This document shows positions 36,186 through 59,966 of a stretch of DNA of 64,000 nt, one piece after another (the stretch's first letter is position 1; the number at the start of each line of letters is the position of its first letter). Below the pieces are notes generated by a model. That model searched no databases and was not told where the DNA came from. It saw only the letters and a program-made list of their open reading frames with translations. A program made the position numbers and the translations under genes. The stretch spans positions 1 through 64,000 of the forward strand of contig JAEEQP010000001.1 of NCBI GenBank assembly GCA_016285355.1. Reading direction: 5' to 3'. Source of the DNA: Bacteroidales bacterium (GTDB lineage: Bacteria > Bacteroidota > Bacteroidia > Bacteroidales > F082).

Positions 36186-36201
36186 GCTCAATAAACCGCT
36201 G

Positions 36202-36209: not shown

Positions 36210-36411
36210 CATCATTTTTGTCAAATAATTCAAATTTTTGCCAAAAATATAGTAATTACATTGGCTTCAACACGTCAAGAGCCAATTATTGGATTGTTTT
36301 GCCTAAGATTTTTTTAAGCCTCAATGGTTATTGCGTTGCAAAGTCACTGCGTTTTTTGAAAGTGCAGTAGTTTTGAGGGAATCTATTTTTCAAATACAAT
36401 TTGACAGTCTT

Positions 36412-39666: not shown

Positions 39667-40097
39667 GCCACATCCTCCTTTTCCGCTTCATTATCGTCAC
39701 CACGAAATTGCCGTACATCGTCGCCTTCCACTAGTCGATGAAACAGGATCACCGTCGCTTGTAGCAAAAGAAGGCTATGCTCGATGACCTCATCAATATT
39801 GTCATTGTTGAAGATACGGTGTTCGTAGGTGGCCCACACATTACTCCCATAGGCACACACCTTGCCATATTTGATTTTAAGGTTAGTATCATTGATGATG
39901 TCTAAAATAGGGGCACGGTTGTCTTCTGTAACATCAAAGATATTGGGCACCGAAAACCGCAAAAAATCCTCGTCTTCATCATCTGGGGCATATAGAATGT
40001 TGATTCCCTCATAGTTGAACACATACCCAAATTCTGGGATTTCCTCGACGGAGAATCCGAATTCTTCCAGTTTTTCTAAAATCACTTTCTTTTCCAT
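39663..40097 (-). CDS. YbjN-like small protein, second copy
   Basis: 144 aa. YVFNYEGINILYAPDDEDEDFLRFSVPN, ILDIINDTNLKIKYGKVCAYGSNVWATYEHRIF resembles the YbjN fold: 'n..N......k.....g.v.a..e....'. Acidic C-terminal tail. It is the first gene after the kinase-AAA gene by 63 bases in the same direction. The three small genes downstream of the AAA gene are probably its partners. Confidence 0.6.
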   Translation of the reverse strand: MEKKVILEKLEEFGFSVEEIPEFGYVFNYEGINILYAPDDEDEDFLRFSVPNIFDVTEDNRAPILDIINDTNLKIKYGKVCAYGSNVWATYEHRIFNNDNIDEVIEHSLLLLQATVILFHRLVEGDDVRQFRGDDNEAEKEDVA

Positions 40098-43021: not shown

Positions 43022-43044
43022 GACCGTCAAAGTTTATAGCATGA

Positions 43045-44445: not shown

Positions 44446-45226
44446 TTTGTTTCTCCTTTATTCTTTTTATGTAATCTTCCAAAAGTCTTGTTCCGTATGT
44501 GTTGTTAGGCAACGCCTCCACATCAACATTCTCTCCAAAAGCAAAAGGTGTTTCTGCGACATCTTCAATGCTGACTTTTTCCCATGATTCCTGAAGTTCT
44601 GAATAGTGGCCATACACAAAAGCCGGAAGCCCTTTCAGTAGGTCTTTTACATCATGATAATGATGGATAGTGATTAGATCCCAGGCGTATTTCCTTCCAT
44701 ATTCCACTATCTTCGCCCTGAGCTTTCCTTCTGGATGGGTCAAACTTGCTGGTAATGTTTCCAAGGCGTACTTGTATTTCCCTGTACCCACATCTCCGCC
44801 CAATATGGAGAATCCTCCTACCAACATGTCTGCCGCCAATTCCTGAATCCACATCTCATTGTCAAATAGCACGAATCGCGTATGATACAGAAATTGATGG
44901 CTCATTTCGTGGACAATGACTAAAGTCAGTGAGTCCTTGTTGTTCACTCCTGCTCGTGTCATCATCTGCCAGTTGTAATACAATTCACATTCTGAAGCAT
45001 CCTCACAGGTCATAACTTTGGCTATCGTTTCACACTTGTCTTGGACGACGGGCGCAGGTAATTGAAAGAAATCAGCCACTTTCTGGATAACCCTTTTTAT
45101 ATCCTCATTCGTCAGTTTTTCTCTGTCATAAAAGAACACGTCAAAAAAGTTGGCATTATGGCGCCTATAGAACGCTTGCCATACTGCCATAAATTCATAA
45201 TCGATGTCTTTCTTCTTTTCGTCCAT
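44426..45226 (-). CDS. Zinc metallopeptidase-like protein (HExxH)
   Basis: 266 aa. LTLVIVHEMSHQFLYHTRF has HExxH and a later WIQELAADMLVGG supplies a likely Glu zinc ligand, as in gluzincins. No signal peptide, so it is cytoplasmic. A helical N-terminal region (MDEKKKDIDYEFMAVWQAFY) precedes it. The substrate is unknown; within a conflict island it might process a partner on activation. It lies between the DUF1232 gene (21 bases upstream) and the 430-aa gene (overlap). Confidence 0.7.
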   Translation of the reverse strand: MDEKKKDIDYEFMAVWQAFYRRHNANFFDVFFYDREKLTNEDIKRVIQKVADFFQLPAPVVQDKCETIAKVMTCEDASECELYYNWQMMTRAGVNNKDSLTLVIVHEMSHQFLYHTRFVLFDNEMWIQELAADMLVGGFSILGGDVGTGKYKYALETLPASLTHPEGKLRAKIVEYGRKYAWDLITIHHYHDVKDLLKGLPAFVYGHYSELQESWEKVSIEDVAETPFAFGENVDVEALPNNTYGTRLLEDYIKRIKEKQNENNGQ

Positions 45227-45246: not shown

Positions 45247-45612
45247 TTATTCGTCATCCGAGGCTACCGTCTCGTAGGGCGTATATTCTGCAAACCATTT
45301 GTCCAACATCTCATCCGTTTTTCGCTCAATCTCAGGTGTGATGTGTTTGCTGACTTTTTGAAACACCACAGCAATGGAAGCTGCTTCGTCAATCCATCCC
45401 ACCAAGGGATGCTTTTTCGCCGAAATCAAGTTGATAGGTAACACGAGGTACGCAAGTGCCGATCCTATCAACAACTTGACAGAACGGGGCGTTTCTTCGC
45501 TGGTCATGACAAAGTAAAGCAACAGCACCGGCCTTGCACTGACTCGCCCGACTTTCTTGGCATATGTCTTGATGTTGTCCCATAGTTGGGATGCGTTGAT
45601 GTTTGATTCCAT
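45247..45612 (-). CDS. DUF1232 (YkvA-like) small membrane protein
   Basis: 121 aa. The core VKLLIGSALAYLVLPINLIS...HPLVGWIDEAASIAVVFQKVSK is the DUF1232 signature, with 'YlilPiDliPd..p..G..DD' changed here to NLIS and DEA. One or two hydrophobic helices. Function unknown; such proteins are common in stress- or toxin-linked operons. It is the first gene of the 43153-45612 operon. Confidence 0.75.
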   Translation of the reverse strand: MESNINASQLWDNIKTYAKKVGRVSARPVLLLYFVMTSEETPRSVKLLIGSALAYLVLPINLISAKKHPLVGWIDEAASIAVVFQKVSKHITPEIERKTDEMLDKWFAEYTPYETVASDDE

Positions 45613-45720: not shown

Positions 45721-47259
45721 TTAATCCGACAATGGCCCAACAATCTCCCAATGGCCTCCTTTATCGGGGCCAACGCGACAGATGATTCCTTGATCTTTCA
45801 ATTTTCGGATGTTTTTGTCTACCCCATTCCGCGTCATACCAAGGCGATTAGCCATTTCTGAAAGTGTAATATCAGGTGTTATTGCAATTAGTTCCAGAAT
45901 TTTCTGCATACTTTTCTGCATACTTTTCTGCATACTTTTCTGGTTACTTTCTGTTTCCTCCGTAGTTTTCTGTATACTTTTCTGTATGGTTTCACCTTCT
46001 TGCTGCTTCACCAAGTCCTCAATCAAAAGCGTTGCCTCCACCCGTGCCGGCATTTGATGCTCGGCAAGCGTCGGCAATTGCCAACCGTTCTCACGCCAGC
46101 CAGTACTGATAATGTCAGCACCACTTCCGGCTTTTTCACCGACACCGACAAACACGAACATCTTTTGCAACAATGGATTGCGGCAAACGCTGTGCCCGCC
46201 TTCCCAAAAGTCTTCCAAACTGACTAGCATTGTCCCAGGATTCGACATCACAATACGGTCATCGTAACGGTCAATCACTATGTTCCCCATCACCGTGTAG
46301 GCACAATGGATGAGGCAGTTGCCCAAAGCTTCTCTTAATGAAGTGTGAGCCAATGTGGTGTCTTTGCGCCGTTGGTTTTCATCCAACTTAAAGGGCACTG
46401 GTAGCGCATGTTGCAGCATGGGTAGCACCCGAGAATAGAATTGATAGAGATTGGCTTCCCATGTGCCATCAGGATAGATCCGGTTTGTCCAGCGGATATT
46501 CTTCCCATCACCAAGATGTTCCCGATAGTCCGGGAAGAAGTTCGGGCAACACTCTGGGTCGGTAATGCTGCTGTTTTTGCCAAACATCAACATTCCCGCC
46601 ACCGTGAAACCTTCTTTTCCCGTAGTCCTGTCTTTGCGATAAGCCCCAACGCTTTCCAAAAACCGCAGGTCGTCAAAATCGTTCCACGGATGGTTCTCGT
46701 GCCTGTCTTTATACGACTGCCGATAGTTTCGCAGCGTCGTTGCATCTATGTCGTCAAAATTATAGCCCGTCAATATGCGCGAGTCTGCCGAGTATTGCAC
46801 GTTGTTAGCATCTGAAAACATTTGCCGCACCTCGTCATCCGAACAAACATAATCTCCCTCATGGTGGCGTTTATAAGTGTGTCCGAAAGGAGTAAGCGTT
46901 AGATATACAGGACACAAATAATAAGGTGCCTTGGGAATTAGGAACAACAACAGCCTAATACCATTTGCCGTTACATGTTCTACTACATCCCTTTCCGTCA
47001 GCAGTGGAATACTCACACAACTCTTGTTATGCGCACAATCCCAAAACGTTTTCTTATGTGCGGTTATTTGTTCCTCGGTTAGTCCATCAGGCATGAACTT
47101 GCCATTTTTCTCTTTCACGCCCATCACAATTACGCCACCTTGGCTGTTTGCAAAGGCCGAAAAGGTTTCCCAGAAAGACCCAGGAAAGCCGCCCTTTGCC
47201 GATTTGTATTCTACCTCGGTTCCTTCTCTCAATTTCAAAGATTTTACTAAGTCTTCCAT
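45721..47259 (-). CDS. AlbA_2/Schlafen-type ATP-binding protein with HTH and QKSM repeats
   Basis: 512 aa. The AlbA_2 domain starts EGTEVEYKSAKGGFPGSFWETFSAFANSQGG, and the GHKL-like ATP-binding half (HATPase_c_4) follows with LREALGNCLIHCAY and VGEKAGSGADIISTGW. A QKSMQKSMQKSMQK tract (encoded by 12-bp repeats, about 45898-45945) leads to a winged helix (ITLSEMANRLGMTRNGVDKNIRKLKDQG). Proteins of this layout are predicted regulators or nucleases in mobile elements and defence loci. It has its own promoter (47294-47301). No partner is obvious. Confidence 0.85.
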   Translation of the reverse strand: MEDLVKSLKLREGTEVEYKSAKGGFPGSFWETFSAFANSQGGVIVMGVKEKNGKFMPDGLTEEQITAHKKTFWDCAHNKSCVSIPLLTERDVVEHVTANGIRLLLFLIPKAPYYLCPVYLTLTPFGHTYKRHHEGDYVCSDDEVRQMFSDANNVQYSADSRILTGYNFDDIDATTLRNYRQSYKDRHENHPWNDFDDLRFLESVGAYRKDRTTGKEGFTVAGMLMFGKNSSITDPECCPNFFPDYREHLGDGKNIRWTNRIYPDGTWEANLYQFYSRVLPMLQHALPVPFKLDENQRRKDTTLAHTSLREALGNCLIHCAYTVMGNIVIDRYDDRIVMSNPGTMLVSLEDFWEGGHSVCRNPLLQKMFVFVGVGEKAGSGADIISTGWRENGWQLPTLAEHQMPARVEATLLIEDLVKQQEGETIQKSIQKTTEETESNQKSMQKSMQKSMQKILELIAITPDITLSEMANRLGMTRNGVDKNIRKLKDQGIICRVGPDKGGHWEIVGPLSD

Positions 47260-47293: not shown

Positions 47294-47301
47294 CAAAGTT
47301 A
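47294..47301 (-). promoter_or_regulatory. -7 box of the AlbA_2 gene
   Basis: TAACTTTG on the minus strand, 34 bases before the ATG at 47259. Confidence 0.55.
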
Positions 47302-47341
47302 CATCAAAACCAATAAAGCTACAATGTGCGATGACAGATTT

Positions 47342-47635
47342 CTATAAGTCGAAGCCGAGTTTCTTGCCCAAGGCCTTCCACCGAGCATCGTCTTTATCAA
47401 AGTCATCAAGCATTCTTTCGGTCTTTTCGATGAGGTTGTCAGTATCATTAAGGAGTTGTTGTGTCCGCAGCCGCAGAGCAATTCTTTCTTTGACAAAATC
47501 TTCCTCATCAGAATTGGCTCCAATGGTTTTCATTACTTTCTTCAGGCAACTTGACGAGTTGTCTAACTTAATCCCGCTGGCTTCAATGGCGCGATCGAGG
47601 AGCTTTTGTCTGTTTGTTAAATCATTCCAAGACAT
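47342..47635 (-). CDS. Small helical protein, last gene of the 12 kb run
   Basis: 97 aa, almost wholly helical and charged (KERIALRLRTQQLLNDTDNLIEKTERMLDDFDKDD), no Cys cluster or membrane segment. No family recognised. It follows the interrupted small gene and both DUF4407 genes on the same strand and is probably co-transcribed with them. Confidence 0.6.
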   Translation of the reverse strand: MSWNDLTNRQKLLDRAIEASGIKLDNSSSCLKKVMKTIGANSDEEDFVKERIALRLRTQQLLNDTDNLIEKTERMLDDFDKDDARWKALGKKLGFDL

Positions 47636-47648
47636 ACTATTAAGTTTT

Positions 47649-47846
47649 TATTTTGTACTTCTTTTTGCAGCATCCATGTATTCATCGCCTTTGGCTTTGT
47701 ACATTTTGGCGCTATCCGTATGGTCCTTAGCCGCCCTACTGTCGTTCCTCTTTGCGGCTTCAGCAGCACGCTTCATGTGCCAAGCCATATTATCGTAATT
47801 CTCCTTAACCTTCCTTAGGTTCTATGCTTTGTCGTTGATAGACATA
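47649..47846 (-). pseudogene. Small Lys/Ala-rich gene interrupted by a TAG codon
   Basis: The frame from 47846 reads MSINDKA, then TAG, then 57 further codons with a coiled-coil-like MKRAAEAAKRNDSRAAKDHT. The sequence after the stop keeps a coherent helical protein, so the TAG (47823-47825) looks like a recent nonsense mutation; a shorter protein could start at the ATG at 47789. Confidence 0.55.
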
Positions 47847-47941
47847 TTTTATTGAGTATTAACACCATTATACAAACACATACCCTTATTACACCAATAA
47901 TATCTATCGTGTTTCAACTTTGGTTCATACCAAAACAAATG

Positions 47942-48820
47942 TCATCTTTGTTCAGTATTCTCCACACATTCTTCGTGACACAACCTCTCTTTTAATCTCT
48001 CATATACACCATTTGGAAGAATACATGTATATAATATTGGCGTTACAAAAATCATTATGAATAACAGCATTACCAAAACCAGAGCCGCTGTTTCTTGAGA
48101 AATCGCTCGTAATGCTTTCAGACGAGGTAACAGACCATGATTTTTTGTTTCTTGTTTACTTCGAAAAGCGACTTCCTCATTATTAATTTGTTGTAACAAC
48201 GAATCATTTACCGCTTCTATTCTTTGGTACTGACAATCCATTCGTCTTTTTAGCACCTTCAATTCACGTTCTTCAGCCACATGAGCATCCTTCTTCTTTG
48301 CTAAAAAAGAGTTCATTTCGTCTTGATAAACACGAAGCCGTTCTTTTTCATCATTCATCCTTATGAATTTTAATTCTTCAAGAGACTGTTTTTTAACCAT
48401 CCATGCTTCATCAATTTCTTGTTGGAAGAGGGTCTGTATATCCGTCTCAAATAAAACAAGATTTAAAGGTATAGCAACGAAGGCTCCCATAACAATAGCC
48501 AGCAATAGCCCCCATATTGCTCCTAACGAAACAAATCGTTTCATCATAGTTCTACCTCGAATCGTTGACAACACTAATCTGATAAGACACATAACCGAGA
48601 ATCCCCAAAACAACCCCAAAACCATGGATAACCACATGAAATGAAAAACATAATGAATCACAAACATAAATGAAAGTGCAGCCAAAATAGAAACAACAAA
48701 CACTGTCATCCCTATTATCTTGTGTCTATTAATTTCAGACGGACATATTCTAATTAAATTTTCATCCGTACCAGACATCCATAACAACGTCTTTGTAATA
48801 AAATCAAAGTTCTTTTTCAT
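47942..48820 (-). CDS. DUF4407 membrane protein, short version
   Basis: 292 aa. The N-terminal KTLLWMSGTDENLIRICPSE is the DUF4407 opening, then four membrane helices (about 35-55, 60-80, 105-125 and 245-270). Between helices three and four lies a long coiled coil (EIDEAWMVKKQSLEELKFIR...RLRVYQDEMNSFLAKKK), probably cytoplasmic or periplasmic. Function unknown. It is a paralogue of the C-terminal half of the next gene upstream, and the pair may form a hetero-oligomer. 42 bases separate the two. Confidence 0.82.
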   Translation of the reverse strand: MKKNFDFITKTLLWMSGTDENLIRICPSEINRHKIIGMTVFVVSILAALSFMFVIHYVFHFMWLSMVLGLFWGFSVMCLIRLVLSTIRGRTMMKRFVSLGAIWGLLLAIVMGAFVAIPLNLVLFETDIQTLFQQEIDEAWMVKKQSLEELKFIRMNDEKERLRVYQDEMNSFLAKKKDAHVAEERELKVLKRRMDCQYQRIEAVNDSLLQQINNEEVAFRSKQETKNHGLLPRLKALRAISQETAALVLVMLLFIMIFVTPILYTCILPNGVYERLKERLCHEECVENTEQR

Positions 48821-48862
48821 TGTTTTTAAGTTATTATTATTGGTAATAGTAAACTAACATTA

Positions 48863-51256
48863 TCATTCTTCTGGATAATCATCTTTTGTATAATCTTCAA
48901 GAGCCTCCTGGACGAGCTTGTCCCATAGGTACAACATGTGTATATAGTTTTTGTCTATTATAAACAATTCTTCTTTTAAAAGACTATCATTGTTTTTTAC
49001 CACATCATCATTGTTCTTACCTTCATTATTGTCTGGATCCATGTATTTTTCATAGTCGCCATTACGCAAAATGCATTTATAGAGTACTGGTGAAATGTCA
49101 ATAAAAACAAACAACAGTATTAAGAGCAAAGTAGCCATTTCAAAATTGTCATTGTTCCATGGGCGCATCAATTGCTGTAGTTGTTTCAACTGTATTCCTA
49201 AACTTGTATAGTCTGTTTCGTGAGATTGGTAAAACTTGTCTTTTTCGTTTGTTAATGCATCGTCAATTTTTTCGTTTTTGTTCTTACGCAAATTTGTTAT
49301 ACTATCTGTTAACGATTTAATAGCATTGTTCGCTTCATCATAAACATTTGAATTTCTTCTCGTTGGAGCTTTTAATCTGCCTATTTTCCTTGAAATATAA
49401 ACCCTATTTGTTGAATCTTTTGTGTTCTCTAGCTCTTTTTGAAGTGCCATCCTTGTTGTTTCATAGTCAATAGAATCCTTTTTATAAATGGAATTATCAT
49501 TCTTTTCAGCATTATTCTTAATGCTTTCCCACTGCTGTTTTCGCTCTTCCAAACCCGTGATTTCCTCATCGAACCTAGTTTCAAGCGAACTTCGAAACTT
49601 CTCCTTTTCGGTTTCCCATATAAAGTCATTCCGAGAAGATATATGACTGCGAATATCATCCTCAAAAACCTTCAATTCCAGCGGAGCCGCAATAACTATT
49701 CCGATTAGAAGAGATATGCAAAACCTAACCAATCCACCTTTTTTAAAAAATTTATCTCTAAAGTTTCTACCATGAAGTGTTGAAGTAATAAATCTGTCTA
49801 TAAACATTATGGCCATACCCCAAACGATACCAATCGGAATTGCTGCGCCCCAGCTTTTAAACACATACCAAAGAGCATAACAACATGATAGAGCAGCCAT
49901 AATCGCTGTAATAAGAATCATTGTTCCAACCCCTACATATTTGTTGTATTCACCCTTACAAGATGTCAATAAATTCTTATCAACACCAGCAACCCACCAC
50001 ATTGCCTCTGTAAACCAATCAAGTTTTCCTTTTGTTGATCTGAGTTTTTCGCCCTCCTTCCTTAAAGCATCCACCTTGTTGCCGTTTAGCAAATCAACAT
50101 TTACATTTTGTGTGGAGAATTCCGGAATCTTAATTGAAGAAATAATACTATTCAGACGATCGCGCTTATGCCTTAATTCTTCATCTTTCCTCTCTTGCTC
50201 AAGACGAGCTGCTATTGGGTCAACGTCAAAATATGCAGAATAATTTATATTGGCATTGACAATAACTTTTCGTGGATTCTCATTGATTCCATCATTCCAA
50301 CTGACAAATCTGTATCCTCTCTTTGACTTGGCTTCAATAAAAACTGTGCTTCCTTTTTCATATGTACCTGCACCTTCTGCAATACCCATTGAAATGTCGT
50401 TTACATCAAGTGACAAACGATAACGAATATGTTCAAATATAGCAGTGTACATTTTATTTGCATCTACGATAATAGTACGATTACTATTTATGTCACCATC
50501 CTCCCATCTTGTAAACACAAACCCTGGTTTTGCGGTTGCAGTTATCTTTGTAGTTGCACCAGACTCAAAACTACCCGACCCAGTCGTTACACCCATTTTT
50601 TCGTCACATGCTTTGACAACAATGTTGTATTTGGGTGTAGCTTTTTCAAAATAAGCCATATACTTAGTACTTTCAACCACTGTAATTAGATGTGGATTGT
50701 CGGTGTTACCATCACTCCATTTTACAAATTGGTATCCATCTTTTTCTATGGCCGTCAATTCTATCACGCTCCCGCTTTCATAACTACCAGTACCTTTTAC
50801 CGAGCCCCACAGGTGATTATTAGCGACAACTTCAATAGAATACTTTGGTGGCTCTATCTCATTAAACTCAGCAATAAATTCTGAATCTTTTTTTACTATG
50901 ATAGTGCGTTTTGAGTCCCTCGCATCATCCTGCCATTTCACAAATTTATACCCGTTATTTGGCATCGCGACAAGTTCAACCTTCGAATTAACTGGATATG
51001 TTCCGCCACCAGAGACAATTCCTTTTTGTTCGTCTTTTGAAACGGCTTTAATAGTATAAACTGGCTGCTGTTCTTCTGAAAGATCAACAAACCCTTCTTC
51101 TTCCCAATCGTCAAAATACATTGAAATTATGTCAGACTGACCTTCATACTTATAATCAATGCGTTTTGATTCCTCGTCTATCTTTTCGACAACAACGGTA
51201 AGCCCCATTCCTTTATTATTGGAATAGCGGTGTTTTTCTATTGGCTTGTCACTCAT
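48863..51256 (-). CDS. InlB-repeat plus DUF4407 fusion membrane protein
   Basis: 797 aa. N-terminal module 1-65 (HRYSNNKGMG, IDYKYEGQSD, MYFDDWEEEGFVDLS) is shared with the next gene. Four divergent InlB-type repeats follow (about 67-345; each has 'G.G.Y..Gs.v.l.A...gY.F..W.dg...n...i.V..n..y.A.F'). Residues ~405-797 are DUF4407: WFTEAMWWVAGVDKNLLTSC, four membrane helices, a long coiled coil and an acidic tail. There is no signal peptide, so the repeats may face the cytoplasm, unusual for InlB repeats. It is probably the membrane anchor of the system. Confidence 0.85.
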   Translation of the reverse strand: MSDKPIEKHRYSNNKGMGLTVVVEKIDEESKRIDYKYEGQSDIISMYFDDWEEEGFVDLSEEQQPVYTIKAVSKDEQKGIVSGGGTYPVNSKVELVAMPNNGYKFVKWQDDARDSKRTIIVKKDSEFIAEFNEIEPPKYSIEVVANNHLWGSVKGTGSYESGSVIELTAIEKDGYQFVKWSDGNTDNPHLITVVESTKYMAYFEKATPKYNIVVKACDEKMGVTTGSGSFESGATTKITATAKPGFVFTRWEDGDINSNRTIIVDANKMYTAIFEHIRYRLSLDVNDISMGIAEGAGTYEKGSTVFIEAKSKRGYRFVSWNDGINENPRKVIVNANINYSAYFDVDPIAARLEQERKDEELRHKRDRLNSIISSIKIPEFSTQNVNVDLLNGNKVDALRKEGEKLRSTKGKLDWFTEAMWWVAGVDKNLLTSCKGEYNKYVGVGTMILITAIMAALSCCYALWYVFKSWGAAIPIGIVWGMAIMFIDRFITSTLHGRNFRDKFFKKGGLVRFCISLLIGIVIAAPLELKVFEDDIRSHISSRNDFIWETEKEKFRSSLETRFDEEITGLEERKQQWESIKNNAEKNDNSIYKKDSIDYETTRMALQKELENTKDSTNRVYISRKIGRLKAPTRRNSNVYDEANNAIKSLTDSITNLRKNKNEKIDDALTNEKDKFYQSHETDYTSLGIQLKQLQQLMRPWNNDNFEMATLLLILLFVFIDISPVLYKCILRNGDYEKYMDPDNNEGKNNDDVVKNNDSLLKEELFIIDKNYIHMLYLWDKLVQEALEDYTKDDYPEE

Positions 51257-51299
51257 TAGTTTTTTTTATTAATGGGTTGTTGTTCTATTATCTGCTTCA

Positions 51300-52175
51300 C
51301 TACCTTGAATGAAATATATCAGAATTAATTCCTGTTTTCAAAATACTATTCACCTTTTCTATAATACCCTTTTTCTTTTCAGAATCAAATTGATCCGATA
51401 GTTCTATTATTTTGTCTCTCAAATCCTTGGTTTTCCCTATAAGATTCATTTTCTTGCTTTCCTCAAGCTGGAACAGCAATCTGTTCAGAAGCTTCCATTT
51501 TTCACTGTTATTACCAAAAGTGGCAGTGATGTTAACATCATCAGGAGCAGTCGCTTTTTTTTCAAAATAAGCGGTATATTCAACATCTTTTTCTACTGGA
51601 ACATTCCTCGGATTAGTTGATGAATCATCATTCCATTTCTTAAACACATATCCATTTTCCGGTTTCGCGCTAATTTCAACCACGGACCCAACATAAAACA
51701 TACCTCCTCCATCAACAGAGCCTTGTGCCTCATCATTAGATTTGACAGTAATTGTAAACTTGGGTTTCTGCTTTTCTTCGAAATATGCAGTAAAAGTCAT
51801 ATCTTTGTCTACCTGAATATCTCTGGGATTCGAAATATTATCATCATCCCATTTCAAGAAACAATAACCATTTTTGGGAGAAGCACTAATTTGAACTATC
51901 GAATTAACCGGGTATATCCCTCCGCCAATGACTGAACCTGCTTCGTCATCAATGGTCAACACTGTTAGTGTAAACGTTGAGGGCACCTCCCCTGTTAAAT
52001 CAACATAATTCCCTTCTTCCCAATCGTCGAAATACATTGATTTGTCATTATATTGGTCATCTGTCTGCCCTTCGTATTTATAATCTATTCGATTAGACTT
52101 TTCTACAATTTTCTTTATAATAATAGTACCATCATTACTGGAATAACGATGTCCCTGTATGCATTTATCGCTCAT
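51300..52175 (-). CDS. Soluble InlB-repeat protein sharing modules with the kinase and the DUF4407 fusion
   Basis: 291 aa from MSDKCIQGHRYSSNDG at 52175; a longer start at 52256 would overlap the dynamin gene and lacks the shared N-terminus. The N-terminal module (HRYSSNDG, IDYKYEGQTDD, MYFDDWEEGNYVDLT) matches the 48863-51256 protein. Two InlB-type repeats follow, then a ~70-residue helical tail (EKWKLLNRLLFQLEESKK...INSDIFHSR) nearly the same as the C-terminus of the kinase. It has no membrane helix. The layout suggests an adaptor between the kinase and the membrane protein. Confidence 0.8.
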   Translation of the reverse strand: MSDKCIQGHRYSSNDGTIIIKKIVEKSNRIDYKYEGQTDDQYNDKSMYFDDWEEGNYVDLTGEVPSTFTLTVLTIDDEAGSVIGGGIYPVNSIVQISASPKNGYCFLKWDDDNISNPRDIQVDKDMTFTAYFEEKQKPKFTITVKSNDEAQGSVDGGGMFYVGSVVEISAKPENGYVFKKWNDDSSTNPRNVPVEKDVEYTAYFEKKATAPDDVNITATFGNNSEKWKLLNRLLFQLEESKKMNLIGKTKDLRDKIIELSDQFDSEKKKGIIEKVNSILKTGINSDIFHSR

Positions 52176-52197
52176 ATTAATAGTAATTTGATATATT

Positions 52198-54738
52198 TCA
52201 CTTGTTGACCTCTTGCCATTGATTGTATAGGGCCTGTTTTCTCTGCAACTCATCAATAATACCTTGACGCTTTAATATTTCGTTGTAGTGGAGGCTAACA
52301 AAATGCACTATTTGATTGTTCATTGATCTGGGTGCACCAAACTGGAAATTAATAGCAGAACGTCGTTTTGCAATAAAATCGTCATTCACCTCTCTTTTTA
52401 GATCTTCTAGAATACTATCATCTTCATTTCGCAACGATTTCTTAATTGCATTCTCGATTTTCCACAATGATTTCAAGAAAGAAATATTTGCATTTTGAAG
52501 AGTGTTAAATGACGAATTGGCAAAGTTATCATTGTGCATAAATTTCAATATGGTTCTACTGATTATTTCACGATTGATAAAGTCTTGGACAATGCTTGTG
52601 ACATCGTATGAAAAAAATTGGTCAAATCTATTTTTCCAAATGGTGTCTGAAATAGACTCGCTTAAACGTTTATACCATTTACCATTACCTTCATCCCTGT
52701 TACACAAGAAGCCAAGATATTTATCTTTCCTAAAGATGTCGTATAGCTCATTTTGAGCTATTTCTAAACTCGATTGAATGGGCTTCGGGGAAACTAAATC
52801 TTGCACCTTTTCGGTAATGAGGTCATTTAAGTTACACTTAATATCACTATATGCCCTAAATTCTCTCCAATTCTCATACTCAATACTTGTGCATGGACCA
52901 TTTTTTCCAATAATATTAAATGTGTGTTCTGCAAAAAGGCTGGATTTCTTTTCTGCATCTTGCTCATTCTTTATACTATCAATTATTTCTGTGATTTTCT
53001 CTTCAGATAGCACTGCGTTGTAATAGTCGTTTAATCCTCTTAATGAATAAAGGACTTCCCTTCCAACATCTTCATTTTTTGCATATTCTTTTATTTTCAA
53101 GACAATTGTGTCTACAATTGAATTGTGTGATATTAGTGATAATTCCGTACACAGTTCTTGTACCGTACGGTTTACATCCACATTATTATTTCCAATGTTA
53201 ATATTGATAGCATTGGCAAGCCTTTGAAGGTCATTAATCTGTTGATGGACAATCCCAAATAAACCATCGGCTGCCGCAGTAAAGTCTTTATCTATTCTTT
53301 CAATATTATTAGCAAGATTTGAAACTATACTGTAAAGAATCGTTTGGCAATTCTTTGTATTGTTTAATTGCAAATCAGAAATTGACCCATCTCCATTTGA
53401 TATGTAATCATATACATAATTTCTTTCGCAATCAACCAAGATTTTTCTTTCTTGTGGTAACACAATAGGTGTCATTGTCTTCTCTATACCATTCTTAAAT
53501 GCTCGAATATAGGCTTGGTTAATGAGAGTCAAATTACCTGCGGTGGCATCATTAATGATATAATAAATGAATTTACTCTGTTTCTCGCCGTAATTATCAG
53601 TTAGGCTAGAATGAAAGGAGATTAGGGCTTCTGCGGGGACAGCCTGATCGTGCGCTTTTTCGATAGCAATTACCGAATCTATTTCATTTAATAGTTTTTC
53701 CTTAAGGGTTTCGTCAACGCCAACTCTTTTTTCTCCCACTCCTGGAGTATCTAAAAACTGAATTGGGCCGACTTCTTCATTCGCAACTTTAAAACCAATG
53801 AAAACATCTATCATTTTTACAGCATAAACAGAATAATTATCCGTTGTTACACCATCATAATTGAATGTACTTCTCTTGTAGAAATCATCTCTGTTAGCAG
53901 ATAGTCGTAAATCATTTATTAAGGTATCTGGACGATCTAATAAATCAAGATATTTTTCATATTCTAAAATGATATTTTTAAAAGTAGCTCCCAAAGTGTT
54001 TTCTTGAGCATTTGGAATTGATAGTGCTTTGTCGCGATGGTTTTGGCAGTATTCTATTAAGTCAGATTTGGAAATGGTAGAGCACCCCGTATTAATCTTA
54101 TCCCAGTTTAGTTTACATTCTTCAATATATTTGTTTATGGTTTCACAAATGTCTTTTGTGGTATTATATGTCACAACTGCACGGGGAATAGCATCAGCCT
54201 CTTGGGGCAATCCATTAATCGCGGGATAATGTTTCCTAATCTCAGCTGGTATATCGTAATCACTATTAATATAGTTTACAGATGTCCCGGTACATGGAAG
54301 ACCGCCATTATTCGTTGGAATAATATCCCTTGACGATAGTTGCTCAGAAATTGGGCAAATCAATTGTTTAAGGATTGTACTTTTGCCCTGACGAAACGCG
54401 CCAACAACACCAATGTTGATATACTTTCGGCTAACTCGATTATAAGCAGTTGTAAATACTCCCGGATTGACCCCGTCTCCTAGTTCCTTTAGATTTGTTA
54501 TTAGCCCTTGGGTTGTTTGGTTCCCGTCAAGTATCTCTTTTATTTGAGTCCATATGTTTTGTTGTCCAGTAGACTCTACCATTCGTTCCCAAAGCTGAAC
54601 ATCGTCTGTTCTAAAGGTTTTCTGTATCGCTTTTACACGTCTATTCCAAGCGGAAATCGTGTTTTTTCTTTGCTCGTAAGTATTCCTTAAACTCTCTCTA
54701 TTTACGAGTGCACTTTGAATTAAATCTTGTATCGGCAT
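52198..54738 (-). CDS. Dynamin-like GTPase
   Basis: 846 aa. P-loop GAFRQGKST at residues 113-121 and G3 FLDTPGVGE near 330 define a dynamin-family GTPase domain; a long region between them (PTNNGGLPCTGTSV) is the usual switch area. The C-terminal half is helical and rich in Asn and Lys, as in bacterial dynamin-like proteins that bind and fuse or remodel membranes. Bacterial dynamins occur in several anti-phage loci and membrane-repair functions. It sits directly before the InlB-repeat genes and after the transglutaminase gene in one run. Confidence 0.82.
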   Translation of the reverse strand: MPIQDLIQSALVNRESLRNTYEQRKNTISAWNRRVKAIQKTFRTDDVQLWERMVESTGQQNIWTQIKEILDGNQTTQGLITNLKELGDGVNPGVFTTAYNRVSRKYINIGVVGAFRQGKSTILKQLICPISEQLSSRDIIPTNNGGLPCTGTSVNYINSDYDIPAEIRKHYPAINGLPQEADAIPRAVVTYNTTKDICETINKYIEECKLNWDKINTGCSTISKSDLIEYCQNHRDKALSIPNAQENTLGATFKNIILEYEKYLDLLDRPDTLINDLRLSANRDDFYKRSTFNYDGVTTDNYSVYAVKMIDVFIGFKVANEEVGPIQFLDTPGVGEKRVGVDETLKEKLLNEIDSVIAIEKAHDQAVPAEALISFHSSLTDNYGEKQSKFIYYIINDATAGNLTLINQAYIRAFKNGIEKTMTPIVLPQERKILVDCERNYVYDYISNGDGSISDLQLNNTKNCQTILYSIVSNLANNIERIDKDFTAAADGLFGIVHQQINDLQRLANAININIGNNNVDVNRTVQELCTELSLISHNSIVDTIVLKIKEYAKNEDVGREVLYSLRGLNDYYNAVLSEEKITEIIDSIKNEQDAEKKSSLFAEHTFNIIGKNGPCTSIEYENWREFRAYSDIKCNLNDLITEKVQDLVSPKPIQSSLEIAQNELYDIFRKDKYLGFLCNRDEGNGKWYKRLSESISDTIWKNRFDQFFSYDVTSIVQDFINREIISRTILKFMHNDNFANSSFNTLQNANISFLKSLWKIENAIKKSLRNEDDSILEDLKREVNDDFIAKRRSAINFQFGAPRSMNNQIVHFVSLHYNEILKRQGIIDELQRKQALYNQWQEVNK

Positions 54739-54807
54739 AATGTTGTATTTTTTATTATTGATTAGTTACTTTCTATTTAAAAATGATTATTAAGTATTAA
54801 TAAATTC

Positions 54808-55770
54808 TCAATATATACTCACTTGCGTAAATTCATGTGTTGCAGATAAATATTCCATTGTATTGTCAAAGAACTTAAAAGGGAAGCAAGGCGTAGATGC
54901 TGGTTTTTCACCAAATGTGTAAGAGAAGTCTCCATTATCAAAGATGTTTCTAGAATCCCATGTAGGATCCATCAGCACCCACCTGCATCCATTCCATGCA
55001 GTTGGAAAAACATGGTTGCTTTCTTTATATGCCATACTCTTTTTTTTCTCTGAGATAGTGTTTGATGCACAACAACGAATACCTATTGAAGGAATTGAAA
55101 GCGCCCTAAATATTGCTACTGTGAGATTGGTGTATCCTTGACACACACCCTTGCCTTTAGAATAAGTAGACAAAGAAGAGTTATTCTTCCTTTTATATAA
55201 GTCGTCATTCAAAGCATCCATATCGTATGAAATATTTAGAGCAACCCATTCGTGGACAGCTTCCATTAGTGATATATCCCTGCTTCTAGCGTCTTTCTTT
55301 ATTTGATGGGCAAGATTCCTAATATTAGTATTATTAGATTGTATTGTCTTTGAAGGACTAACTAATCGAGAATCGAGTGGATTTAATGTTTCAAGGATTT
55401 TATTATTCGATTCATAACTTTTAGGTAGTAGAAAGCAGACACAATCGTTGGTAACCTGAATTCTAATATTACACTGCCCAATCATTGAATAATACAAGTT
55501 ATCGTTAGCGCTATGTTTACACCACACACAAAGATAATACTCACCCTCCTTTAGTCTTCCGACGTCCATTTTATCAGTTCCAAATGGACTAAAAGGCAAC
55601 TTCCCTCGTTTGAACTGATGCTGCCACACAGTTTTTTCATCATTGTCAATGATTCCGAAAAGGCAATCATCAAAAAGCATATTTTGTGGCAAACTTTCTA
55701 CTACAATCTGAGTCCCTTCAAATGCTAGAAAGATTCCCTTTGACGAATATGATGTTTTAATTTTCTGCAT
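54808..55770 (-). CDS. Transglutaminase-like cysteine protease or cross-linker
   Basis: 320 aa. C-terminal half is the transglutaminase/peptidase fold: KGKGVCQGYTNLTVAIFRAL (catalytic Cys near residue 208), ESNHVFPTAWNG (His near 250) and MDPTWDSRN (Asp near 266). The N-terminal ~120 residues are beta-rich with no signal peptide, so it acts inside the cell. Such proteins may be peptidases, amidases or cross-linkers. It starts 2 bases after the kinase gene ends, so the pair is likely coupled; a role as effector triggered by the kinase is inference. Confidence 0.78.
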   Translation of the reverse strand: MQKIKTSYSSKGIFLAFEGTQIVVESLPQNMLFDDCLFGIIDNDEKTVWQHQFKRGKLPFSPFGTDKMDVGRLKEGEYYLCVWCKHSANDNLYYSMIGQCNIRIQVTNDCVCFLLPKSYESNNKILETLNPLDSRLVSPSKTIQSNNTNIRNLAHQIKKDARSRDISLMEAVHEWVALNISYDMDALNDDLYKRKNNSSLSTYSKGKGVCQGYTNLTVAIFRALSIPSIGIRCCASNTISEKKKSMAYKESNHVFPTAWNGCRWVLMDPTWDSRNIFDNGDFSYTFGEKPASTPCFPFKFFDNTMEYLSATHEFTQVSIY

Positions 55771-55772
55771 AA

Positions 55773-56936
55773 CTATCTTTTATGGAAAATATCGGAATTT
55801 ATTCTAGACTCTAATATTTTGTTCATTTTTTCTGTAATCTCCCTTTTCTTTTCAGCATCAAATTGGTTTGACAATTCCACAATCCTATTTTTCAAATCTT
55901 TGCATTTTTCTAATAGATTCTTTTTTTTACTATCCTCCAGTTGGAAAAGCAATCTCATAAGGAGTCTCCATTTCTCAATGTCAATATCTGTGGTAGAACT
56001 GCCGTAAACACCTGATTCGCCAAGAGGTTGAATATCGCGAACATCTTTAATTAAGTCATTTGCAATCTCTTCAAGTATTTCTCTTGCTGGCGTTTCATTT
56101 CCTTGCTTGAAAAGATAACAGTTCTTAAACGATTCAAAGTCTGAATCTCTAAAAAGCAATCCTTCTTCATTCGAGAGTCTATCAACTTCCTCATCGTCCC
56201 ACAAATAAGGCCTTGCCTGTAGCAGTTGTAAACTGGCAATGATTATTTTCTCTGAAAAGTAGTCATCTTTCTCAGAACAACATAGGGATATTGCCCCAGA
56301 AATACGTTGGGGGTGTTGATAACCGCTATAGCCAGATGTTACTTGTGGCCTGCCAGATAAAGCTGGAACATACATGGAATCGTAATCAATCAGTTTTATT
56401 TTTATATCGCCATCAGGTGACTCTGACACAATAATATTTGCGTGTTGCAAATCACCATGAGAGATATTATTCTTATGCAATTGTGCAAAACATTCTCTAA
56501 ACAAGACTTCCAATTTGTGTAGTTTTTCCACTACTAAAGTCTCCCCAAGTCCACTTTCGTAAACGGATTCGATATATTTTTTCAAATCAAGTCCATCGAC
56601 CCAATCCATTATCATTACATCAGTATATCCGTCATCAATCCGAAGACTTCGCTCGCAAAACTCATATCCCACGAAATATGGCATAGGATGGTCTTTCAGA
56701 AATTCGGACACCATCTGCATTCTTTCCTTATTATCTGAAATATCTTTAAGCCAAACTTTCACAGCTTTACATGTAGCTCCACTCTCCATCTTGAAGGCCA
56801 TGCCAAAACCACCCAAATAATATAAAGGCAAACCGTTCCTTTTTGACAAAACACATGTATAACCCAGCAATGGTTTGGCGATAATATTGCCCGTGTTTGA
56901 TATTGAGTCAATTGCTTGTTCTTTTGTTGGTATCAT
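55773..56936 (-). CDS. Ser/Thr protein kinase of the TerY-P type with C-terminal helical module
   Basis: 387 aa; ATG at 56936 lies right after the PP2C stop, and a start at 56969 is an alternative. The kinase keeps its parts: LGGFGMAFK (glycine loop), CKAVKVW (ion-pair Lys), ISHGDLQHANIIV (HxD loop near 170) and LIDYDSMYVP (metal Asp, replacing DFG). Activation is plausible with HGD and IDYD, as in TerY-P kinases. The last ~70 residues (EKWRLLMRLLFQLEDSKK...INSDIFHKR) are shared with the 51300-52175 protein. It forms a triad with the PP2C and vWA genes. Confidence 0.85.
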   Translation of the reverse strand: MIPTKEQAIDSISNTGNIIAKPLLGYTCVLSKRNGLPLYYLGGFGMAFKMESGATCKAVKVWLKDISDNKERMQMVSEFLKDHPMPYFVGYEFCERSLRIDDGYTDVMIMDWVDGLDLKKYIESVYESGLGETLVVEKLHKLEVLFRECFAQLHKNNISHGDLQHANIIVSESPDGDIKIKLIDYDSMYVPALSGRPQVTSGYSGYQHPQRISGAISLCCSEKDDYFSEKIIIASLQLLQARPYLWDDEEVDRLSNEEGLLFRDSDFESFKNCYLFKQGNETPAREILEEIANDLIKDVRDIQPLGESGVYGSSTTDIDIEKWRLLMRLLFQLEDSKKKNLLEKCKDLKNRIVELSNQFDAEKKREITEKMNKILESRINSDIFHKR

Positions 56937-56937
56937 C

Positions 56938-58107
56938 TCATTGCTGTTTATTGTCGTTTTGTAATTCAACTTTCAATAATTCTACCTGTTCGTTGATTTC
57001 AGCCATCAGTTTAAGGCACATATTCATCTTATTCGTTATTGCTGTCAGTCTTCTCTCGTAACCCTCAATAGTATCGTTTTGTTTTTTCTCTTCCTCTTCC
57101 AAAACTGAAGATTCTGGCGGAACAGCGTTTTGCAATCCTTCCGAAGCACATTCTTCTTTAAGTTTCTCCTCATTGGCGATTGTGTCTTTCTGCTTTTCAA
57201 CACCTTCTATTGATTCTCCAACCTGTTCTGTATTTGCAGAGTCGATGTTCTTCTTTTGCTCTTCTATACTGGTTTCCGCCGATAATTCTTTCATCTTTGC
57301 TACCTCTGCATTTATCTCTTCAACATTATCAAGGTATAGAGTTTCATAGGTAATCTCTTCTTGGTCTAAAGCATTAGTAATGTGGACAATCAGTAAAGTA
57401 CAGTCATCGTCATCCATTTCTTTTCCCATTATTTTTTCATCTCTCCATGACAAATAATCAACATGGTTATTAAGAGAAAACAATTCTTTAGCAATATTTT
57501 GATTCACCTTGCAATTATTAAAGAACCATTTTGACATTTCGTCCGTCATTAATAATAGGTATCCGTCTTCGATCGGCAATGTTCCTGAAATAGCTGCACC
57601 TTTGTGATTACCATTAGAAGAAAAATACTCTGGTTGGTAACCAAATTGTTCATTAGACATTGAAGAATAATATCTGATGTTTTCACCATTTTCACTAACA
57701 AATACTAAAAAGCTATCTCCCAAAGCGACATATTTCCAGCAATTATCATCAAAATAGCAACCAACAAACGTGGCTGCAGAAAAACCACACCGCTCTTTAG
57801 TTAACTCCAGTCGAAATCGTCCACGAGTATCACTCTCTGAATGCTTCTTATTGTAAAATCGGGTAAACTCTTCCGTATAGTCCTTTTTTAGCGTAGCGGA
57901 ATTACCCTCAATTTGGAATAATCCTATTGGATTGTTTACATAATCAGAAGTCAAATGCTGTGACATGAAAGAGGAAAGCAGCGACATTGTTACTCCATCT
58001 GAAACTGCAAAAGCTAAACGATTAGTGTCAATGGCGAAACAATCTTGACACTTTTCCAAGGGGTCTCCAATATGTGGGATAATAAATCCCTTGATTTCTA
58101 TCCTCAT
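56938..58107 (-). CDS. PP2C-family Ser/Thr phosphatase with coiled-coil tail
   Basis: 389 aa. PP2C motifs in order: FAVSDGVT (metal Asp, about 33-40), SAATFVGCYF, YVALGDSFLVFV (about 132-143), LMTDEMSKWFF (about 185-195) and DDDDCTLLIV (about 230-239). The last 150 residues form an acidic coiled coil not found in plain PP2C enzymes. It would remove phosphate from targets of the kinase encoded just downstream. It forms the triad vWA-PP2C-kinase with neighbours on both sides. Confidence 0.85.
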   Translation of the reverse strand: MRIEIKGFIIPHIGDPLEKCQDCFAIDTNRLAFAVSDGVTMSLLSSFMSQHLTSDYVNNPIGLFQIEGNSATLKKDYTEEFTRFYNKKHSESDTRGRFRLELTKERCGFSAATFVGCYFDDNCWKYVALGDSFLVFVSENGENIRYYSSMSNEQFGYQPEYFSSNGNHKGAAISGTLPIEDGYLLLMTDEMSKWFFNNCKVNQNIAKELFSLNNHVDYLSWRDEKIMGKEMDDDDCTLLIVHITNALDQEEITYETLYLDNVEEINAEVAKMKELSAETSIEEQKKNIDSANTEQVGESIEGVEKQKDTIANEEKLKEECASEGLQNAVPPESSVLEEEEKKQNDTIEGYERRLTAITNKMNMCLKLMAEINEQVELLKVELQNDNKQQ

Positions 58108-58124
58108 GGCTTGCTATTGTTCTA

Positions 58125-58152
58125 AGGGAGCCCCTCTGTCTTTGAGCTCCCT
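58125..58152 (-). promoter_or_regulatory. Hairpin between vWA and PP2C genes
   Basis: AGGGAGC and GCTCCCT pair across 14 bases. There is no T-run, so it could be an RNA processing or attenuation site that sets the vWA to PP2C ratio. Confidence 0.4.
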
Positions 58153-58170
58153 CATACATATGTTTTTGAG

Positions 58171-59028
58171 TTAAGTATTTGAAATGTTTGATCCAAATTC
58201 AATGAACCTTGTCAACGTGGCTTCTTGTGCATTAGCCACAAGACCTTTACAACCAGCTCCTATCTTGGCACCATTATCTGATACAAAGATGTGGGCAGCA
58301 CTTTGTGCCATCCTCGATGTTAATTCACTACTAATATCAAAAAGAAATTCAGTTTGATAATTGCCAGCTAATAAGCTCTTTTCTATTGGGAACTTGATTT
58401 CCTGACCATCACCCATGTGTGCATTAAACAAGAATACTTTGCCTCCATCATTGTCGTATGTGTTCATTAAATTCACCGCTGAACTCATAACTTCTTCAAG
58501 GTAGCCAGGAACTTGTTCGAAATCCTCCTTACATCCATCTGTGATATTAATTACAATAGGTAATCCCATTGCTACGATAGGTTTTTCTCGTTTGGTCGGA
58601 TCTGACGCTTTTGGGTTAGCAATCTCTCTTTTTATCTTTTCATGCCATGCTTCCAACAATTCTTTCGCCATGTTAAAGGCACCAGCCATTGGAGTCCATC
58701 CGTTAGTGCATTCAAGGGTAAACAACGGCTTTCCGTTATATTTGCAGGACATCACATCGTCTTCCCACTCACTTGCCCATCCGTGTCTTATAAGTTCAAC
58801 ACTATCTCCCTTTTTCCCATATCCAATTACAGAGATATAGCACCTATTAATAAAATCTTCACCACTAACACAGCCTAAGATAATGTCATTTATTGATTTT
58901 GTAATACAGTTTTGTGCTAATTCTAACCGAGTCATAGAACCTGCTTGATTTGACATTGAACCAGATTGGTCGATCAGAAAGACTACATGGCCAGGCCATG
59001 GTGATCCATTTTTTTCTTTGTAATCCAT
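58171..59028 (-). CDS. von Willebrand factor A protein (TerY-like)
   Basis: 285 aa. MIDAS metal site FLIDQSGSMSNQ (DxSxS, about residues 16-27), with the Thr site at NGWTPMAGAF and Asp at INITDG. No signal peptide or membrane helix, so it is intracellular, as TerY is. vWA domains of TerY type pair with PP2C and kinases in the TerY-P triad. It probably senses or recruits a partner by metal-dependent contact. The PP2C gene follows 63 bases later with a hairpin between; upstream is the M48 gene. Confidence 0.85.
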   Translation of the reverse strand: MDYKEKNGSPWPGHVVFLIDQSGSMSNQAGSMTRLELAQNCITKSINDIILGCVSGEDFINRCYISVIGYGKKGDSVELIRHGWASEWEDDVMSCKYNGKPLFTLECTNGWTPMAGAFNMAKELLEAWHEKIKREIANPKASDPTKREKPIVAMGLPIVINITDGCKEDFEQVPGYLEEVMSSAVNLMNTYDNDGGKVFLFNAHMGDGQEIKFPIEKSLLAGNYQTEFLFDISSELTSRMAQSAAHIFVSDNGAKIGAGCKGLVANAQEATLTRFIEFGSNISNT

Positions 59029-59102
59029 GATGTCGTATATTTAAATTAAACATAAATGATCATTTTGATACTTGTTTGTTTTCAACGATTATAATATGTT
59101 TG

Positions 59103-59966
59103 TCAAGGGCGATCGAATATTGAAATGTCTATATTATTGGTAAGTGATAAAACTTTGGGTATAAATTGATTAATATTCTCTTCATCCATCCATTTAATCA
59201 ACTCCGATGCCCGCATCACCGTCCAAGGATGAGTGGAGTCAACAATAGAGACGAACTTGAAGAATTTGTTCAGTTTCTCATAGTCCAAGGTTTCGAAATC
59301 CTTGGCCTGTTGGAGGAAGGCTTGTTCGTTCAATCTACTGAAATGGCCCTGGGGAAGCCCTGCCATTTTGGTGAAGGCTCGAACAACTGCGTCTTTGTTT
59401 TGGCAACACAGCAATCCAGCACGGTCAGCGGTAAACTCGCTCATCCTGTCCCAATACAACAAGGCATATTGCAAAGGAGCCGCAATAAGGTTGCCGCCAG
59501 GAATCATGTCAATAATGTAGTTAATCACCTGTGCCAGCATGTGATAGAGCATGTGATTGCTCTTAATGTGCCCAAGCTCATGGCCGATGATAAACAGGAT
59601 TTCGTCATCGTCGCACAAATCCATCAAACCAGAGTTCAGCACCACAATTGGATTTTCCGCTCCAACGGTAAATCCATTAATCCCGAATCCCCACTGAAGA
59701 TACATCTCTGGCTTCCTGTCAACATCCAACACGCGGCAAGCATAATCCATGTACTCATACAGCTGCGGATAGCTGTCCTTTGTAACCCTCAGGTGGCTAC
59801 CTGTATATTGCACCCTGTAAATGCGCTCAATAGTTTGCTTGGTTACATATTTTCCAGCAATGGAAAGTCCTGGAGTCGCTTCCAAGGTCTCCAAAGCCTT
59901 CTTGTCAAAAGGATGCTCGTATTGCGAGTGGTCGAGGCCAGTCAATATTTTCTTCGTGTGCTGCAT
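59103..59966 (-). CDS. M48-family (HtpX/YggG-like) metallopeptidase
   Basis: 287 aa from MQHTKKILTGLDHSQYEHPF. A TTG start at 60008 falls inside the -7 box and is rejected. FIIGHELGHIKSNHMLYH has HExxH and MSEFTADRAGL supplies the third Glu ligand. A hydrophobic stretch (VINYIIDMIPGGNLIAAPLQYALL) lies after the zinc site, as in HtpX. No signal peptide. It is the first gene of the 12 kb run and has a clear promoter (60006-60013). In this context it could be an effector or a maturation protease; there is no direct evidence. Confidence 0.82.
   Translation of the reverse strand: MQHTKKILTGLDHSQYEHPFDKKALETLEATPGLSIAGKYVTKQTIERIYRVQYTGSHLRVTKDSYPQLYEYMDYACRVLDVDRKPEMYLQWGFGINGFTVGAENPIVVLNSGLMDLCDDDEILFIIGHELGHIKSNHMLYHMLAQVINYIIDMIPGGNLIAAPLQYALLYWDRMSEFTADRAGLLCCQNKDAVVRAFTKMAGLPQGHFSRLNEQAFLQQAKDFETLDYEKLNKFFKFVSIVDSTHPWTVMRASELIKWMDEENINQFIPKVLSLTNNIDISIFDRP

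Follow-up and report, generated by a model that had tools for sequence, protein, structure and literature searches.

What does a bacterium build when genes for a phosphorylation switch, a dynamin-like GTPase, peptidases and membrane proteins lie side by side in one operon? The question is raised by an eleven-gene run in a 64,000-nt stretch of a Bacteroidales bacterium (assembly GCA_016285355.1, contig JAEEQP010000001.1, positions 1-64,000 of the forward strand; GTDB lineage Bacteria; Bacteroidota; Bacteroidia; Bacteroidales; F082), the whole of which we call the window. The run reads from 59966 to 47342 on the minus strand and encodes, in this order, an M48 metallopeptidase, a TerY-like vWA protein, a PP2C-like phosphatase, a Ser/Thr kinase, a transglutaminase-fold thiol enzyme, a dynamin-like GTPase, an InlB-repeat adaptor, a fusion of InlB repeats with DUF4407, a short DUF4407 protein and two small proteins, P46 and P97. 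An earlier note on this DNA had listed these genes as one unit behind one promoter and had proposed that a phospho-switch controls a membrane-bound effector in a defence island. All eleven are present in order on one strand, and their domain calls hold; the run is real, but the same strand continues to ~36565, so as first drawn it stops early and is half of a larger two-operon island of ~20 genes. Our overall reading, held with about even confidence, is that a TerY-P-type switch, anchored to a membrane scaffold, controls the dynamin and two peptidases within a modular two-operon system. That the run works as one system we regard as very probable.

Conserved core across relatives

The backbone of the island recurs in two distant relatives, an uncultured Porphyromonadaceae (G001, loci L001 and L049) and genome G136 (loci L036 and L037). 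In the window and both relatives the order M48, dynamin, DUF4407 fusion, P97, DUF1232 protein, gluzincin-like protein, kinase-AAA fusion, YbjN protein is kept, and a WG-repeat protein sits in the same place in G001 too. Over the aligned part, identities of the window proteins to those of G001/G136 are 49/63% for M48, 61/60% for P97, 42/44% for DUF1232, 35/29% for the gluzincin (the G136 match covering 55% of its length), 31/33% for the kinase-AAA fusion, 29/28% for the DUF4407 core and 23/28% for the dynamin (the G136 match covering 47% of its length). Conservation is highest in P97 and M48 and among the lowest in the dynamin.

To gauge distribution, we drew on 324 genomes sampled from the order of G001 (presumably Bacteroidales); these profile searches scored only a few first-look candidates per genome, and misses are possible. 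As a search anchored on the dynamin in genome contigs returned a single distant locus, gene-order counts rest on the sampled genomes. The dynamin profile matched four of them (G001, G136, G294 and G257) and P97 two (G001 and G136); M48 matched 100 at E<=0.001, only three of them above 200 bits (G001, G136 and G294). Some profiles included rows that they matched (A6: G001, G136, G294; A3 and A4: G001), and those self-matches are given here; G294 still scores 2e-15 with a dynamin profile lacking it, and G257 matches Pfam Dynamin_N at 2.4e-8. M48 and dynamin lie within one island in G001, G136 and G294, an overlap expected by chance at 7e-7, or 6e-5 without the seed G001, with the score line drawn after the fact. 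A second M48 group, found at L040, L042 and L043 (genomes G208, G107 and G209), lacks a dynamin and has a conserved 164-191-aa neighbour of its own.

Beyond this sample, the only strong dynamin match among 118 phylum-wide genomes was again G001; two 18-20-bit partial GTPase matches in that set were not counted. By family, P97 matched one of nine genomes in that of G136 and three of 247 in that of G001, two of the latter being 25-26-bit stretches inside ~700-aa proteins that we did not count as P97. These long proteins (L097:10157-12307 and L098:9608-11722) each stand between a 446/447-aa and a 534-aa gene. No relative of the dynamin, kinase or P97 was found in viral contigs, none of the dynamin or P97 in plasmids and none of the dynamin in phages. 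Against plasmids, the DUF4407 fusion had no relative and matched only an InlB-repeat protein, and the kinase gave two weak matches (27-29% identity). The kinase has 2123 homologues and is therefore no signature on its own.

The order PP2C-kinase-transglutaminase-dynamin-InlB/DUF4407, which the earlier note had expected in other genomes, was seen in none of those inspected. Homologues do travel together in part: M48, dynamin, DUF4407 fusion, P97 and much of operon 2 do so, but the vWA/PP2C/kinase cassette does not.

Switch genes beside the core

What differs between the islands is the switch. In the window it is a triad of adjacent genes, each with a PADLOC match, which upholds its naming as TerY-P-type. 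The vWA protein (58171..59028, minus strand, as are all island genes below) has the metal ion-dependent adhesion site motif and scores 24.1 bits with Pfam, below the cut-off of 27, and 1.6e-18 with PADLOC TerY. The phosphatase (56938..58107) has the metal-binding Asp residues; it reaches 18.9 bits with Pfam, below the cut-off of 24, and 4e-15 with PADLOC PP2C. The kinase (55773..56936) carries HGD and DYD motifs, matches Pkinase at 5e-9 and matches PADLOC STK_OB at 9e-36 over the kinase part only (model positions 4-265 of 562). Pfam recognised neither a zinc ribbon nor an OB fold at its C-terminus, which is instead a 67-aa tag also present on the adaptor.

In ten loci, profiles for vWA, PP2C and kinase of the window type matched the window, G140 and G078 (the triads of the last two being included in the profiles) and nothing in G001, G136, G294 or G257 except for a 13.6-bit kinase match at the kinase-AAA gene of G136. 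Neither the G140 nor the G078 genome has a dynamin match; the PP2C search reached three of the 324 genomes, one at 19.7 bits only. Neither the G001 nor the G136 island yielded the vWA-PP2C-kinase-transglutaminase-adaptor cassette. Where the window has the triad, G001, G294 and G257 have DO-GTPase-type genes. There are two in G001, of which one passes the Pfam cut-off of 27 bits and the other reaches 23.9; three in G294, of which one passes and two are weak yet plainly homologous; and one in G257, which passes and lies directly 3' of the dynamin. A profile of these six genes found no match in the window at E<=0.01. A GAP1 domain, for which we take Pfam to hold models, had no Pfam match in the scanned neighbours of G001 and G294, where distant forms are possible.

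In G136 the DUF4407 gene is followed by a DA1-like peptidase, a vWA protein, a PP2C and a kinase-vWA fusion, a triad that appears to follow the same logic with sequences beyond the reach of the window profiles. Three of the triads have a predicted peptidase beside them: a transglutaminase-fold enzyme in the window, a DA1-like one in G136 and a trypsin within an AAA protein in G140. From these comparisons the membrane module seems to stay constant and the switch that it carries to be exchangeable. The passages of PMC7159879 on core pairs describe MoxR-vWA, DO-GTPase-GAP1 and EACC1-caspase as not exchanged; the present islands may be an exception to this, though no GAP1 was recognised.

A putative two-address adaptor and DUF4407 scaffold

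How might such a switch be wired to the membrane? The adaptor (51300..52175) consists of a head and two InlB repeats, as in the DUF4407 fusion, and the C-terminal tag of the kinase. The fusion (48863..51256) has the head, four InlB repeats and four hydrophobic segments; the short DUF4407 membrane protein (47942..48820) was assigned by Pfam, the two DUF4407 genes scoring 3e-50 and 2e-31. The adaptor C-terminus is 67% identical to the 67 residues that end the kinase; the N-terminal part of the adaptor is 48% identical, over 209 residues, to the first ~200 residues of the fusion. Since 22 of the 45 identical tag residues use different codons in the two genes, the tag appears to have been duplicated long ago and maintained by selection, and both matches look ancient and conserved. 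The tag matches no effector-associated domain (EAD) model in Pfam.

By hydropathy and charge, the InlB repeats of the fusion are predicted to be cytoplasmic, and a long coiled-coil stretch between its third and fourth hydrophobic segments periplasmic. Collagen-type repeats are found by eye in the G001 DUF4407 protein, and 13 of the 18 DUF4407 homologues listed have a marked collagen-repeat model. Most simply, the adaptor would dock the kinase on the scaffold through pairing of like with like, and a link between kinase and scaffold through the adaptor is, in our judgement, somewhat probable. For the proposed phospho-switch over a membrane-bound effector this provides a plausible connection, the adaptor having one end in common with each partner.

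The dynamin

The dynamin gene (52198..54738) scores barely above cut-off with PF00350 (2e-6), and its GTPase domain has a P-loop and DxxG. The predicted model comprises a GTPase domain and a helical stalk (mean predicted local distance difference test score 79; predicted template modelling score 0.56) and is structurally nearest to SynDLP, BDLP and IniA, proteins of a type linked to membrane upkeep. The whole-model superposition is loose, leaving the domain arrangement uncertain; the model nevertheless identifies the protein as a bacterial dynamin by predicted structure.

Among the closest relatives found, the dynamin is 64-68% identical (P0001/P0002) vs 90% for DUF4407 and 95% for the kinase, and such faster divergence would hint at diversifying selection. 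The longest contig is 135174 for both P0002 and P0130 and 23772 for both P0003 and P0131. This hints that dynamin and InlB-DUF4407 relatives may lie on common contigs; if P0002 and P0130 do share one, the dynamin (64%) diverges faster than DUF4407 (90%).

Transcription and remaining genes of operon 1

We scanned both strands of 61000-36001 for TTG-N(18-22)-TAnnTTTG, which we take to be the Bacteroidota promoter consensus, and obtained seven minus-strand and three plus-strand matches vs 1.56 expected per strand. The promoter of operon 1 lies at 60038-60006 on the minus strand, 5' of M48, and reads TTGTAG...TATATTTG (TTG-N-TATATTTG); that predicted for operon 2 (47294..47324, minus strand; TTG-N20-TAACTTTG) lies ahead of the gene 3' of the run. 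The lone minus-strand match within the eleven genes, at 50973, is inside a coding region, and all minus-strand terminator-like sites in the run are inside genes. Because there is a single 5' promoter and no intergenic terminator-like site or promoter, one transcription unit is the simplest reading; both scans agree with the earlier claim of one unit behind a promoter at 60006, and no convincing internal break that would split it was found. Corrected starts are ATG 59966 for M48 (a TTG at 60008 overlaps the promoter), ATG 56936 for the kinase and ATG 52175 for the adaptor. An Rfam scan of 36-64 kb returned no family over cut-off except two tRNA-Leu.

NusG-like genes are found near the start of three such islands (L036:15875-16465, L083:250-831 and L039:15550-16344; by Pfam match at L036 and L083, by homology at L039), a placement consistent with antitermination in very long operons.

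Inspection by eye showed intact metal-site, Cys-His-Asp, kinase and P-loop motifs. The M48 metallopeptidase (59103..59966; PF01435, 1.2e-22) has HELGH and a second E and no transmembrane segment. The transglutaminase-fold thiol enzyme (54808..55770; transglutaminase core 2e-12), a predicted peptidase, has Cys, His and Asp. P46 (47648..47788) has a homologue in G136. P97 is a 97-aa protein (47342..47635); its resemblance to Nup57, BORC and syntaxin chains (E 0.3-1; Pfam Syntaxin_2 0.019) was taken as chance.

Genes of operon 2

Operon 2 spans 47259 to ~36565. Its first gene, between P97 and DUF1232 and behind its own predicted promoter, encodes an SLFN/AlbA_2 plus HATPase_c_4 protein (45721..47259) that had no blastp match in the compared island stretches of G001 or G136 and is perhaps an insertion. 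The DUF1232 protein (45247..45612; one hydrophobic segment) and the gluzincin-like protein (44426..45226; HEMSH by eye, no Pfam family) are kept in both. They are followed by a protein with no Pfam family (43153..44445; partial G001 match, 28% of its length), a protein kept in G001 (42032..43030) that blastp aligns weakly (2e-4) with a sigma-70-like protein of G136, and the protein kinase-AAA ATPase fusion (40161..42011). A protein with no Pfam family of its own (39663..40097) is tied, through a common G136 homologue, to the adjacent YbjN/TY-Chap protein (39286..39666). The WG-repeat protein kept in G001 (37641..38813) has one hydrophobic segment, and a DUF805 protein is also encoded. No MoxR-type AAA ATPase was found in the run or the scanned operon 2 genes, the sole AAA match over cut-off being PF00004 of the kinase-AAA fusion.

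Neighbourhood of the islands

Elsewhere in the window, a TOTE primase-helicase (PF22548, 1.3e-97) stands beside an AbiEii toxin (PADLOC 2e-127) and a DUF6577 gene (31544-36233), and a BpuJI_N plus NOV_C protein, likely a restriction enzyme, is encoded at 24136-25566. Just upstream of the run is a sirtuin (60228-60926) with a 45% identical homologue past the end of the G001 island (L049:14411-15223), where a PP2C and a second DUF1232 gene follow. In G257 the dynamin is preceded by two DNA methyltransferase genes. The eight neighbours scanned in G136, G001 and G294 are by Pfam a RecQ-type helicase, an ABC-F-type protein, a leucine-rich-repeat protein, a PP2C, a SpoT-type protein, a TonB receptor, YidC and ribosomal S1. 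PADLOC matches of two G136 neighbours to DpdF (3e-149) and mad3 (1e-49) were taken as cross-hits, Pfam naming the RecQ-type helicase and the ABC-F-type protein. The defence island that had been proposed fits the neighbours in the window and G257, but in G136, G294 and G001 the neighbours are mostly housekeeping. Protection of Pseudomonas PAO1 against phage by TerY-P is described in PMC10889362, and delayed phage lysis by DynA of Bacillus in PMC8844932. The system probably serves phage or envelope defence; for defence as the purpose of the island, we put the chance at about one half.

Discussion

How could these parts work together? The constant part would be M48, the dynamin, the membrane scaffold (DUF4407 in three islands), P97 and operon 2 with its DUF1232, gluzincin, kinase-AAA and YbjN proteins, and the exchangeable part the switch, in the window the TerY-P-type triad with the transglutaminase-fold enzyme. 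The adaptor would pair with the kinase through the C-terminal tag present on both, and with the DUF4407 fusion through the head and InlB repeats of each, bringing the kinase to the inner face of the membrane. Damage or infection might be reported by the periplasmic DUF4407 stretch or by the vWA protein; kinase and PP2C would then oppose each other in setting a phosphorylation state that permits the dynamin to assemble on the membrane, where it could either seal the membrane and delay lysis or breach it. The thiol enzyme and M48 may cut partners to fire or reset the system. Whether the dynamin is the final effector we consider evenly balanced. More tentatively, and with rather more doubt than belief, the islands may represent a new class of membrane-defence machine: a constant dynamin/M48/P97/scaffold core with an interchangeable trigger (a phosphorylation or GTPase switch), a two-address adaptor, built of cytoplasmic InlB-type repeats, that connects the phosphorylation form with the scaffold, and collagen-type repeats replacing the InlB repeats in relatives.

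Several observations weigh against this picture. The long common order is confined to three islands, and the exact cassette to the window. Three of the six genomes with this M48 above 150 bits (G208, G107 and G209; 152-176 bits) have no dynamin match, nor do 35 of the 37 with DUF4407 over cut-off, and four stand-alone DUF4407 contexts, checked by eye and phmmer, had no other island gene alongside. The exchange rests on three DO-GTPase-type loci, one of them (G257) a 7.3-kb contig, and two triad loci; one DO-GTPase-type gene each in G001, G294 and G257 passes the Pfam cut-off, and three fall below it and were placed by homology. Phosphatase and DO-GTPase are not strictly exclusive, because G001 has a PP2C beyond its island end, beside the sirtuin homologue, and any exclusivity would be that of the switch module. 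The adaptor had no match in the other loci compared, no protein-database search having been made, and docking therefore rests on one locus. A profile made of four tags, those of the kinase, the adaptor and the kinase relatives P0009 and P0010, matched only these four among the proteins compared, and identical tags could compete instead of bind. The head profile reaches collagen-type relatives marginally (an L001 protein at E 0.014, P0136 at E 0.023), leaving a head common to them unproven. Among the eight scanned neighbours of G136, G001 and G294, none is a clear defence gene.

The last point is one reason to consider envelope stress or membrane repair in place of anti-phage action, with the scaffold sensing membrane damage and the dynamin patching it. 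The mostly housekeeping neighbours in those genomes, the membrane parts (DUF4407, DUF1232 and, in G294, DUF445) and a dynamin nearest to SynDLP, BDLP and IniA would all suit such a role; the patchy distribution, with dynamin in four of 324 genomes, the AbiEii, TOTE and BpuJI-like neighbours in the window and the methyltransferase genes ahead of the G257 dynamin argue for something else, and we think repair unlikely, if a serious alternative. A neighbouring idea, that the activated DUF4407 protein and dynamin kill the infected cell by breaking its inner membrane, draws on the effector-deployment logic proposed, in part of PMC7159879, for NTP (nucleoside triphosphate)-dependent conflict systems, which membrane proteins, a phospho-switch and peptidases would fit. 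No known pore former was recognised, however, and the DUF4407 genes of the four stand-alone contexts stand apart from island genes, making abortive infection improbable in our estimate.

The run could also be a mosaic, a TerY-P plus transglutaminase cassette that adjoins an M48-dynamin-DUF4407 cassette by chance and works apart from it. The core does occur in G001 and G136 without this cassette, and PMC11090510, in its treatment of TerY-P, describes a known add-on module. Yet the adaptor unites the kinase tag and the scaffold head in one protein, with both matches kept at the protein level, and the cassette lies within one predicted operon, between M48 and dynamin; chance adjacency is in our view distinctly unlikely. 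If a docked switch on a constant membrane core proves right, kinase/phosphatase/vWA and DO-GTPase switches, so far treated separately, can serve the same membrane effector, some DUF4407 proteins gain a biological setting, and a bacterial dynamin is found whose assembly may be under phospho-switch control.

Comparison with known systems

The earlier note knew of no described system with this full gene set, and we found no description of one in open-licence papers, PMC11237479 and PMC13092281 having contributed nothing. The TerY-P triad, including its OB-fold antiphage form, is closest: the window has three adjacent genes of the same families that match the PADLOC models. The TerY-P kinase described in a passage of PMC11090510 has a C-terminal zinc ribbon or OB fold, whereas the window kinase has neither in recognisable form and ends in the shared tag; its triad is tied to a transglutaminase, dynamin and DUF4407, and the relatives have other switches. 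Type II/III-A CoCoNuT systems have TerY-P as a frequent but not invariable module, according to the same part of that paper, but no McrB-type GTPase, nuclease or HEPN domain was recognised by Pfam in the run or the scanned operon 2 genes. The islands of G001, G294 and G257 share DO-GTPase-type genes with the DO-GTPase/GAP1 systems (PMC7159879), for some of which, those with GAP1-N2, a section of that paper links kinase, PP2C and vWA genes; its main text does not contain the words 'dynamin' and 'M48'. Unlike those systems, the scanned neighbours of the relatives have no recognised GAP1 domain, the window has no DO-GTPase, and different switches sit here on a like core. EAD-based effector recruitment, in which similar domains on two proteins are predicted to bring them together (a section of PMC7159879), resembles the docking suggested here, except that the window tag matches no Pfam EAD model and one adaptor has two addresses. 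With SynDLP, BDLP, IniA and DynA the window dynamin shares a predicted GTPase domain and helical stalk, but it is only ~23-28% identical even to its G001 and G136 relatives and lies in one operon with a phospho-switch. Taken together, the island appears akin to modular NTP- and phosphorylation-switched conflict systems; its enzymes and membrane domains belong to known families, and what is new is a core combined with different switches, together with the two-address adaptor.

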